NCBI RefSeq assembly: GCF_036370855.1
Contig: NC_088113.1
Coordinates: 21,410,501-21,474,500, forward strand
Length of the DNA stretch: 64,000 nt
Reading direction: 5' to 3'
Origin: Dromaius novaehollandiae
Lineage: Eukaryota > Chordata > Aves > Casuariiformes > Dromaiidae
Positions 57,101 to 60,717 of this stretch are shown here, piece after piece; within the stretch, counting starts at the first letter, position 1, and each line of letters begins with the position of its first letter. Made by a program: the position numbers and the translations under genes. The notes beneath the pieces were generated by a model. That model saw nothing but the letters and a program-made list of their open reading frames with translations, ran no database searches and was not told the origin of the DNA.

Positions 57101-60100
57101 TCACCAGACATCGTCACCATCACTGCCACTGTCGTCACCACCATTGCCACCATCACCGTCCTCATCACCACCATCACCACCATCAGCGTTGTCGTCACCA
57201 CCATCATCTTCACCGCCACCATCATCATACCCGTAGAGGTAGCTGCCGTTATCATCATAGTCATAGGTGTTGTGTTCGTTTTTCTCATCATCGTCGTCGT
57301 CGTCATCATCATCGTCATCATCAGCATCGTCGTCATCAGCATCGTCGTCCTTTCCACTGTCACCCTGGTCAGACTCTGTCTTCTCTCCCGACTGGGGCTT
57401 CTCCCCAGCCTCCGGCTTCCCCTCGGATGCTGGCTTCTCCCCAGCCTCCGGCTTCCCCCCAGCCTCCGGCTTCTCCTTGGATGCTGGCTTCCCCCCAGCC
57501 TCCGGCTTCCCCCCAGCCTCCGGCTTCTCCTTGGATGCTGGCTTCCCCCCAGCCTCCGGCTTCCCCCCAGCCTCCGGCTTCTCCTTGGATGCTGGCTTCC
57601 CCCCAGCCTCCGGCTTCCCCCCAGCCTCCGGCTTCTCCTTGGATGCTGGCTTCCCCCCAGCCTCCGGCTTCCCCCCAGCCTCCGGCTTCTCCTTGGATGC
57701 CGGCTTCCCCCCAGCCTCCGGCTTCCCCCCAGCCTCCGGCTTCTCCTTGGATGCTGGCTCCCCCCCAGCCTCCGGCTTCCCCCCAGCCTCCGGCTTCTCA
57801 ACCGCTGTGGGCTTCACCCCAGACACTGGTTTCTCCCCTGTTGCAGGTGTCACGGAAGCCGCTGGCCTTTCCCCAGGCGGGTGCTTCTCTTTGGACAGCG
57901 CGTGTTCACCCGACTCCGGCTTCCTGGCTGGGGTGACCGTGCTGGGCTCGGGGCTTGAAGCGGAGCTGGGTTTTTCCCCCAGCAAAGGGCCTTCCCCCGG
58001 CAAAGCACTTCCCGGCATCTCTTCCTGCGGCTGTGTCGCCGCACCACCGGCAGGGACAGGAGAGGTCGCTCCCGGGATCCCTGAAACGGGAGAACAGGAG
58101 CATCAGAGCCCCCGGGCTGCTGCAGGTCCCGCAGTGACCTGCCCCGAGACGGACCAAGCCTTGGAGCTCGGTGTTTTAGCACCGCGACGGGTGCAGCGAG
58201 GGCAGAACAGGTTCCCGCACCCAAGCAGCTGAGCTTGCTACAGCGGTGCAGGTGCGTTCTCTCCTGTGGGCTTTTCCCGGTGGATTTTCCGGCCTAGCTC
58301 CCTCTCGCTGCCGCTGCACCGCCCAGGGAGGAAAGAGCCCCCCCGGGACCAAGTCGGCGTCTGCCCGGGGAGGGGTCTCGCAGCAGAGGCACCTCGGGGC
58401 GGGGGTGTACCCCGGTGCCAGAAGGGGCCTTACCGGCAGCCGGTCTGCAGGGGAGCCGGCCCTGGGAGCCGCTGCCCGCGTGCCCGGCCGGGCAGTCCCC
58501 GGCATCCCGGCACTCGGTGAAGCTCCTGCCGCACGGGGCTCCTGCCGCACGGGGAGAAGCCGGGGGTTAGAGCGGGAGCAGCGCCAAGGACCGAGCGCCA
58601 GAGCCGCTGCCAGAGCGAGGCGCAGAGCTGGGGGGCCGAGCGGGGGGCGCAGCGCCCGCCACCGCCCCCAACCCGACCCCCCCCTTCCGCAGGAGCCAGG
58701 CCCGCGGCAACCTGCAGCCGCCCCCTCCCTCCGCGACCCACCGCCTCCCACCTCCGGCGAGCGGCAACCGTGCCCTCCCGCCAGCCGGTCCCACGGCAGC
58801 CCATCGCTCCCCTCCCGCAGGCCACACGCTCCGCGCCCAGACGAAAGACGTAGAGTTTCCAGAGTTCTTCAAAACTTGGACAAAAGTGCCAAGAAAACCT
58901 GTCTTTTTCTTTTTTCTGGGAGGTTTTGGGGAGTGGGTGGAAGAAACAAGTGAAAATTGAAATACTGACTGCAGTAACTTTTTAGCACATTTTTTTTTTA
59001 CTTATCTTTAAGAAATACAATACGTATTATTTAACCAGCACATAAATATATTGCTAAGTATATTTACGAAATAAGTGTCTATTCCTGTTATGCAGTAGCA
59101 GGTAAAGGCACTGCGAAGCAGAGCTGCACTGCGCAGCACGTTCCTGACCTAGGCTGCTTCCCCCCCGGTACCTCTAAAACAGAGGAAGGGTATTGAGAAG
59201 TCAGAAACAGAAGGCGTCAACATTACTGACAAAAGGAGGGTCACATTGTCAGGCCTAAAATCAGCATATAAACTAAGACCAAAAGAAACTCAAGCTTCTA
59301 GAGAAAAAAATCTAGAAAATCATCATGGTATTTCTACAGACACATTTTCGTCAGAATGCAGTAACCCCAGCACGGAGTTACAGAGCAACAGCACATCTGA
59401 CTCACACTGTACAGGAACTGTTATTGCCCAGTACTTTAATTTTCAAAATAAAATTGCCTAACCTGAAATAATTACAGAAGCATCCTGAAAGAAGTGAACC
59501 AGTAATATTTTAAACACTGCTCTAAAAATCATTTCACTGTTCATTTTGAAAGAATGTAATCTTCATTTCTCAGAGTTTGCAATTTTTCCTGAGAAAAAAC
59601 AGGGGAAGGGAAAATAATTTTTCTCTGAGAGTTTCCTTTCTTTCAGACCTGCCCCTCTCCGGTTCGGCTGTGTCTTTTCACAGAGGTCGTTAGCGGTGCA
59701 GCTGCGAGACCTGTCATGGCACAGAGGGCAGGGGCAGCTGCAAGCACAGATGAGGAACGTACGGCTGAGCTGCGGTCGGTGCCCAAGGTGCACAAACGCG
59801 GATGAGGCACCGGAGTTTAACTGCTGCAGCTCAGGCTTTAACAACCTGCGTATTTCATCCGCCAGAGCAAACCAGCCCCCACAAAGCCCGCAGCCACTCT
59901 CACATCAGCACCCGCTCCGCAGGCTGGAGGTTGCTCGGTCCAGCCAGGACTGTCCTTCTCCAGCACCTCCTGCTCAAACACAACACCGTTTCTTGCCCAG
60001 CCTCCGTTTTGGCCCTGTCCACAGCAGCCCTGGGCTCTGACGAGGAAGGTGTCTCTACTGGCTCTGCCCCGGTCACTAATTAGACTGGTGGCCCACCTGC

Positions 60101-60717
60101 CAAGCACCTCTGTGCCTGTACTTTTGGTACCGTTGCAGTCTCTGTCCCTTGCTCCTCAGTCTAGATGCTCCCCATGCTCACCTGCAGACACAGACAGGAG
60201 CTCAACCTCAAGAGAAAGAAGTCCCAGGGAAAAGAAACCTCCTGACACCACGCAATACCAGAAACCCACTCTGTCCCATCAGCTGCAAGGGCCATGAGAA
60301 AACCAGGCTCACGTCACTGCTGTGCTCAGGGCAAGAGAAACCCTGGTCATAGTGGATGGCACCAGAAAAAATGACTTCAGAAGGAAATTAAAGAATGCAA
60401 AAAAAATTTTTGTGGCTGGAACAAAGATGACATTCTTCGTGGCATTTGCTTGATTTTTAATATTCTGCAGAACTCAAAGAATATAAAATTAAACGAGGCT
60501 AAAACTCACAAGGGTCACAACCTTTCACAGAAATCTTTCACAAATGTAAGAATTAAAACAGATACTTAAACACACATCACCGAAAATACAAAAAATACTC
60601 TAAAATCTGCAACAGGTGAGTGTTTCAAACATGCCCATACTTGCCTTTTGTGGGTGCAGCCTGCAGTTCTGCCCACAGGGCGAGGAGCCCCAGCAGGAAG
60701 ATGCTCCTTGACTTCAT
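57101..60717 (-). CDS. WFDC-derived secreted repeat protein with Asp-rich tail (semenogelin-like architecture)
   Basis: Three exons, phase-1 introns: 60645-60717, 58434-58541, 57101-58080 (1161 nt, 386 aa). Exon 1 is a signal peptide with core [13 protein letters not shown], nearly the same as WFDC2's [13 protein letters not shown]. It uses a GC donor (aaag|gcaagt). Exon 2 (residues 25-60) is a decayed WAP: it keeps [10 protein letters not shown], close to [10 protein letters not shown] of a WAP in the neighbouring gene, but lost the CC pair. Exon 3 encodes a Pro-rich lead, seven 18-residue repeats ([18 protein letters not shown] type, rich in Lys/Glu/Pro/Gly), then a run of Asp, a [18 protein letters not shown] segment and an Asp/Gly tail ending DGDDVW. 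The product is a secreted, probably disordered polyampholyte; the tail could bind calcium. AATAAA follows. Function unknown. Exon 2 could be skipped without frame change. Confidence 0.8.
57103..57360 (-). repeat. Asp-codon simple repeat (GAT/GAC) encoding the acidic tail
   Basis: On the plus strand this reads as catcatcgtcgtc and caccaccatcacc runs. On the coding strand it gives the poly-Asp segment and the Gly/Asp tail. Mixed GAT and GAC codons within the run argue for some protein-level selection rather than pure trinucleotide slippage. Confidence 0.85.
57420..57800 (-). repeat. 54-bp coding repeat array
   Basis: Six nearly identical 54-base units (ccttggatg marks at about 57475, 57529, 57583, 57637, 57691, 57745) plus a diverged seventh encode 18 residues each. 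Differences between units are mostly single bases, indicating recent expansion. Confidence 0.92.
58542..60644 (-). other. Intron 1 of the Lys/Glu/Pro-repeat gene, no other gene seen
   Basis: GC-rich up to about 58850, then abruptly AT-rich. No exon-like frame with phase-matched splice sites. A frame at about 59750-59850 with CGRCPRCT...FNCCSSG faintly recalls a WAP core but has no supported splice sites. Confidence 0.55.

Follow-up and report, generated by a model that had tools for sequence, protein, structure and literature searches.

The WFDC locus of the emu (Dromaius novaehollandiae) contains what is very probably a real gene, in which the promoter and signal-peptide exon of a WAP gene head a large exon coding for repeats and a long Asp-rich tail (Table 1). 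We judge it likely to be real because its first exon and promoter are homologous to those of neighbouring genes, exon 3 has a strong acceptor and exon 2 a strong donor, a poly(A) signal is present and its junctions fall in phase 1. The fuller reading, that a WFDC-derived gene secretes a long disordered protein of repeats and an Asp-rich tail with the function proposed below, whatever the tissue, seems to us about evenly balanced.

Table 1. Features of the emu gene and of the surrounding locus (positions in the window unless prefixed by a locus name)
Feature	Position	Strand	Remarks
Exon 1	60645..60717	-	Signal peptide; 73 nt; phase-1 end
Exon 2	58434..58541	-	108 nt, symmetric phase 1-1; possible decayed WAP cassette
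Exon 3	57101..58080	-	980 nt to TGA; remaining coding sequence, 326 whole codons
Stop codon (TGA)	57103-57101	-	In exon 3
TTTAAA promoter element	60757..60762	-	45 nt before ATG
AATAAA poly(A) signal	56918..56923	-	Begins 178 nt beyond the stop
16-bp tandem duplication	58522..58554	-	Spans exon 2 acceptor; second copy as acceptor breaks the frame
54-bp tandem repeat	57396..57799	-	7.5 copies, 98% matches; codes for an 18-residue unit, keeping the frame
Acidic tail	57104..57382	-	93 residues, 40 Asp (22 GAT, 18 GAC)
Plausible signal exons	32989-, 35586+, 38735+, 44288+, 55553+, 60717-		Scan for signal-like first exons
DNTTIP1 exon	L005:7840-7947	+	Right side; Pfam and solved structures
Acyl-CoA thioesterase exon, ACOT8-like	L007:4817-4918	-	Right side; Pfam
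CTNNBL1	2089-2193	-	Left side; Pfam
CTNNBL1	5994-6038	-	By reading; no Pfam match

Location in the WFDC cluster

The DNA analysed, referred to as the window, is a stretch of 64,000 nucleotides (G000:C16:21410501-21474500). Searching the whole genome with the WAP profile at E values up to 10 gave 34 listed matches, 33 of them above the cut-off, and 27 of the 34 fell inside the window; with DNTTIP1 on the right, this is the location expected of the WFDC locus family. Two further stretches on the right, at L006:2932 and L007:1536, read as UBE2C-like and SNX21-like, respectively; short pieces of them had no Pfam match. Between the present gene and DNTTIP1 no further WAP-type gene was found; the gene thus lies on the side of human WFDC3, which adjoins human DNTTIP1 in the opposite orientation. 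SPINT5 has been placed 25 kb centromeric of WFDC3 in the human locus (PMC3209443).

The next minus-strand gene, at 52980-52090 (-), looks complete, with a signal peptide, a WAP domain and a Kunitz domain. Exon 1 of the present gene was considered as the first exon of this downstream WAP-Kunitz gene and rejected, since 52980(-) is already equipped with a signal exon. Elsewhere in the window, 47493-48258 (+) holds a run of short WAP-like exons of about half a domain each (CxxDxDCP...CC...C...C), which match the later part of the profile only, and at 49589-50531 (+) lie two neighbouring pairs of WAP exons, apparently duplicated recently, with Cys-Ala replacing CC in one member of each pair. Four Kunitz-like stretches were found.

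Gene structure and splice sites

The three exons on the minus strand, their junctions and their frame were reproduced as given in the preliminary description, and the spliced product is open for 386 amino acids. Its translation likewise bore out that all junctions are in phase 1, the gene structure of the WFDC locus family; for WFDC genes and their relatives, phase 1 has been stated as a rule of the second exon (PMC3209443). Exon 1 ends in AAAAG and is followed by GCAAGT, that is, by a GC-type donor, which had previously gone unmentioned. Between 28.0 and 58.7 kb we counted six AATAAA and one ATTAAA on both strands taken together, and the AATAAA at 56923(-) lies just past the stop. The homology of the first exon, the structure of the gene, the poly(A) signal and the composition of the product can all be read in the DNA.

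Splice sites were scored with a model built from 26 acceptors and 25 donors that a script had picked from the 27 WAP exons, two of the acceptors scoring below 0 and being probably wrong picks. Among 4,790 background AG sites, 15 scored as well as the exon 3 acceptor, and among 3,243 background GT sites, 22 scored as well as the donor of exon 2; the exon 2 acceptor is weak, with 761 of 4,790 background sites as good. The GC donor of exon 1 scored 4.9, compared with 4.8 for a GT donor 4 nt downstream, which leads into another frame. Use of this GT donor would yield a short Cys-rich secreted protein of 119 aa, or of 83 aa without exon 2. We consider this outcome improbable: its score effectively equals that of the GC donor and its frame is open and Cys-rich, but it would violate the phase-1 rule of the cluster and leave the repeats and the tail untranslated. 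The Cys-rich frame entered in this way occupies 58080-57906 (-) of exon 3.

Homology of the first exon and promoter

We scanned for first exons that look like signal exons and end in a phase-1 donor. Of the 11 rows returned, 6 were plausible and 5 spurious; the signal exon of the WAP-Kunitz gene at 52980(-) was missed by the scan. We aligned the 160-nt first-exon and promoter stretch at 60717 with six other signal exons, 52980(-) among them. Alignment scores exceeded those of all 500 shuffles for five of the six, and for the sixth, 32989-, the score was reached by 6 of 500 shuffles. The best partner was 44288(+), with which the gene has TTTAAA in common within a longer homologous stretch that reaches the CTG of the signal peptide. 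LLALWAEL and TTTAAA had both been described as common to this gene and the WAP genes of the cluster; the former was found in the signal exon at 38735(+), and the latter aligned with the TTTAAA of 44288(+). On these sequence comparisons, the first exon of the gene, together with its TTTAAA promoter, shares ancestry with the first exons of neighbouring WAP genes, as is characteristic of the WFDC locus family.

The scan also revealed a second WFDC-type signal exon, at 55553-55881 (+) (MRLVVLLLLLGLFCLWARLVSA), with a DNA score of 48, where the highest of 500 shuffles reached 40. No WAP match follows it on the plus strand before the 60717- gene. A possible partner, at 55720-55881, encodes a peptide rich in Pro and Arg that matched no Pfam family.

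Coding evidence and composition of exon 3

Exon 3 had been described as a single large exon of repeats followed by an acidic tail, and both the 54-bp array and the Asp content of the tail, 40 of 93 residues, were verified. Upstream of the array we found six degenerate copies of the repeat, compared with 0.61 expected in base shuffles (maximum 3 in 100 trials), and five of the six are in codon register. Their mismatches at codon positions 1, 2 and 3 number 5, 9 and 12, which is the direction expected of coding sequence in counts too small to prove selection. Asp codons in the tail are mixed, GAT and GAC falling into 18 runs where 20.8 are expected.

The open frame alone is weak evidence, since plus-strand frames of 321 and 336 aa overlapping exon 3 are open as well. 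Similarly, the openness of the part before the repeats means little, because 1,259 of 5,000 simulations of it stayed open. For the whole exon, none of 5,000 first-order simulations was open, a result that overstates the coding case because the model ignores repeats.

These observations bear on the possibility of a pseudogene, that is, a dead WAP gene that has kept its promoter and first exon, with GC-rich minisatellite DNA, open by chance, in the place of exons 2 and 3. The open antisense frames are consistent with it, as are the loss of core cysteines and the weak acceptor of exon 2 and the failure to find a relative in the emu's own genome. We nevertheless regard it as unlikely, given that exon 3 has a strong acceptor of the correct phase, that a poly(A) signal closely follows the stop, that the 54-bp unit preserves the frame and that the Asp codons are mixed; the simulations of the whole exon point the same way, with the overstatement described above.

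Assuming cleavage after residue 20, the predicted mature chain of the real gene that we favour comprises 366 residues, with a pI of 4.37, 42 Asp, 43 Glu, 38 Lys and 5 Gln. The repeats, composed of Lys, Glu, Pro and Gly, are near neutral (net charge +1), and the tail has a net charge of -42. Charge-hydropathy analysis predicts disorder for the mature chain as well as for its repeat and tail taken separately; exon 2 and the region before the repeats plot narrowly on the folded side.

Origin of exon 2

Exon 2 had been called a dying WAP exon that retains the WAP core and has lost the CC motif. It does keep four of the usual eight cysteines and lacks the CC pair, so that the gene falls short of an eight-cysteine WAP domain; its descent from a WAP exon is suggested by the comparisons below, with no Pfam match at E values up to 10 and with shuffles equalling its scores in 0.8-3.1% of trials. 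On a profile of the 27 WAPs of the cluster, exon 2 scored 6.4 bits, which was reached by 117 of 5,000 shuffles and by 153 of 5,000 shuffles with the cysteines fixed. Among 238 comparable pseudo-exons from the GC-rich part it ranked fourth, three scoring as high or higher. Its best ungapped identity, 12 of 32 residues, is to the WAP exon at 46924(+), and 8 of 1,000 shuffles reached this value. Among 134 six-frame fragments from 53.0-60.8 kb, its frame had the top WAP-profile score (8.1 bits; next 6.4).

On the basis of these profile and identity scores and of its place behind a WAP first exon, we think it somewhat more probable than not that exon 2 derives from a WAP exon. A substantial possibility, which we put a little below even, is that it is an unrelated or unused stretch and no WAP relic, exon 1 being spliced directly to exon 3 in a two-exon layout nearer to that of the semen-coagulum genes. 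The missing Pfam match, the three pseudo-exons that do as well and the weak acceptor all fit that possibility, and skipping exon 2 would keep the frame and leave an open product of 350 aa. Set against these are the identity to 46924(+), the first rank among the fragments, a good donor and a 1-1 phase like that of WAP cassettes.

Searches for relatives

Neither exons 1-2 nor exon 3 found a meaningful relative in Pfam or among solved structures: Pfam gave one meaningless match (E 7.4), and the solved structures gave two weak matches to acidic stretches (best E 0.19). In the emu's own 1.468-Gb assembly of 271 contigs, searches with the tail and with exon 1 returned the locus itself only, and exon 3 returned the locus and three weak matches on contigs C267, C9 and C5 (E 0.16-0.57). 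The prokaryote contigs yielded no relative, as expected. A cytochrome b search of the genome returned one damaged stretch resembling a nuclear copy, with 45% identity, which was uninformative as to animal class. Matches to the Keratin family of Pfam (sauropsid beta/feather keratin) number at least 150 (150 scored of 211 candidates) and lie in several arrays; a long array of near-identical Keratin-family (PF02422) genes, spaced at about 8.8 kb, occupies G000:C22:5281558-5488241.

Four peptide strings of the predicted protein had no mention in open-licence literature text, and among the open-licence matches listed for WFDC with birds, semenogelin or egg, no bird gene of this kind was reported. 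Passages of the eggshell proteome papers PMC4550075 and PMC4666066, and of PMC8742010 and PMC8144736, contained nothing on the gene.

Proposed function

From its sequence features we infer that the gene is transcribed and that its product is secreted and functional. The original WAP promoter and signal-peptide exon would drive secretion of the protein into an epithelial secretion. The mature chain may be headed by a four-cysteine WAP remnant, if exon 2 is such a remnant and is not skipped; the near-neutral Lys/Glu/Pro/Gly repeats would then form an extended spacer, and the Asp-rich tail would present dense carboxylates to calcium, mineral or basic proteins. That the tail binds one of these in an epithelial secretion, with the repeats as spacer, we propose tentatively.

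The protein may act in the oviduct, a tissue rich in other WAP proteins of birds. The oviduct is the first place to look because such proteins have been recorded in hen uterus (WAP/OVX-25; PMC7385972), in egg white (WFDC3; PMC4904793) and, for WFDC8, in published lists of yolk proteins (PMC6839265) and eggshell-membrane proteins (PMC6811977). It is conceivable, if short of probable, that birds independently converted a WAP inhibitor gene at the DNTTIP1 edge of the cluster into one for an acidic matrix protein that binds calcium in the egg or oviduct, retaining a half-decayed WAP exon; the first exon without a WAP at 55553(+) may suggest that signal exons were reused repeatedly.

If the gene is transcribed, the WFDC locus would breed new secreted proteins outside mammals too, by exchanging the payload behind a retained promoter and signal exon, in this case toward an acidic and not a basic gel chemistry. 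Its product would also be a candidate matrix protein of egg or mucosa, one that domain searches overlook because no Pfam domain remains in it.

Comparison with known systems

The proteins of the semenogelin/REST family are Gln-rich transglutaminase substrates. A gel-forming seminal role for the emu protein, with semenogelin-like cross-linking by transglutaminase, would accord with its WFDC-type signal exon, its fast-evolving repeat exon and the 38 Lys of the mature chain; it is very improbable in view of an acidic predicted chain with only 5 Gln in 366 residues, and the terms 'WFDC', 'WAP' and 'transglutaminase' are absent from the main text of a proteome study on the seminal foam of quail (PMC12853081). 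The preliminary description had termed the gene semenogelin-like, which holds for its construction and finds no support in its predicted protein chemistry, published coagulum proteins being basic; guinea pig Svp5 has a pI of 10.3, a value said to resemble those of the main coagulum proteins in human and mouse (PMC7556508).

The emu gene and the semenogelin/REST genes alike combine a WFDC-type signal exon with a fast-evolving repeat exon and a phase-1 start of the second exon, as far as published descriptions of the latter go (PMC7556508, PMC3209443). Both two-exon and three-coding-exon variants of those genes have been described (PMC7556508). The layout expected of them is a signal exon, one main coding exon and a separate 3' untranslated exon; the poly(A) signal of the emu gene lies in its last coding exon, and no separate 3' untranslated exon was seen. 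The emu gene also differs in its extra small exon 2 and in its position at the DNTTIP1 edge of the cluster. Of the domain swap proposed for it by analogy with these genes, the WFDC-type first exon and promoter heading a repeat and acidic exon stand, and exon 2 as the decayed WAP is suggestive only. Independence from the mammalian event is plausible, judging from the location and the lack of resemblance.

The further claim that the decayed exon is an intermediate that mammals no longer show is contradicted by composites and trappin derivatives published from guinea pig and rabbit (PMC7556508, PMC2831891). Svp5 is composite, with an exon 2 that is a homologue of exon 2 of PI3 and has greatly expanded repeats, and rabbit SVP200 has a small coding exon behind its signal exon (PMC7556508); trappin derivatives without the repeat or without the WAP part are also described (PMC2831891). 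The emu gene resembles trappin/elafin, Svp5 and SVP200 in that repeats are linked to a WAP gene (PMC2831891, PMC7556508). In trappins, the repeats precede the WAP domain in a single exon, whereas in the emu gene they follow the possible WAP and lie in another exon. In chicken and zebra finch, no typical trappins were reportedly found (PMC2831891).

Closer to hand, the neighbour at 52980(-) has the signal, WAP and Kunitz layout published for OCX25 (PMC4550075), a match by architecture only. The WAP/Kunitz egg proteins of birds (ovocalyxin-25, WFDC3 and WFDC8) belong to the same gene family as the emu gene, which differs from them in having no intact WAP or Kunitz domain. Finally, Asp-rich mineral proteins form a general class, to which no sequence relation was found in Pfam or among solved structures; what the emu protein has in common with them is a long Asp run and predicted disorder.
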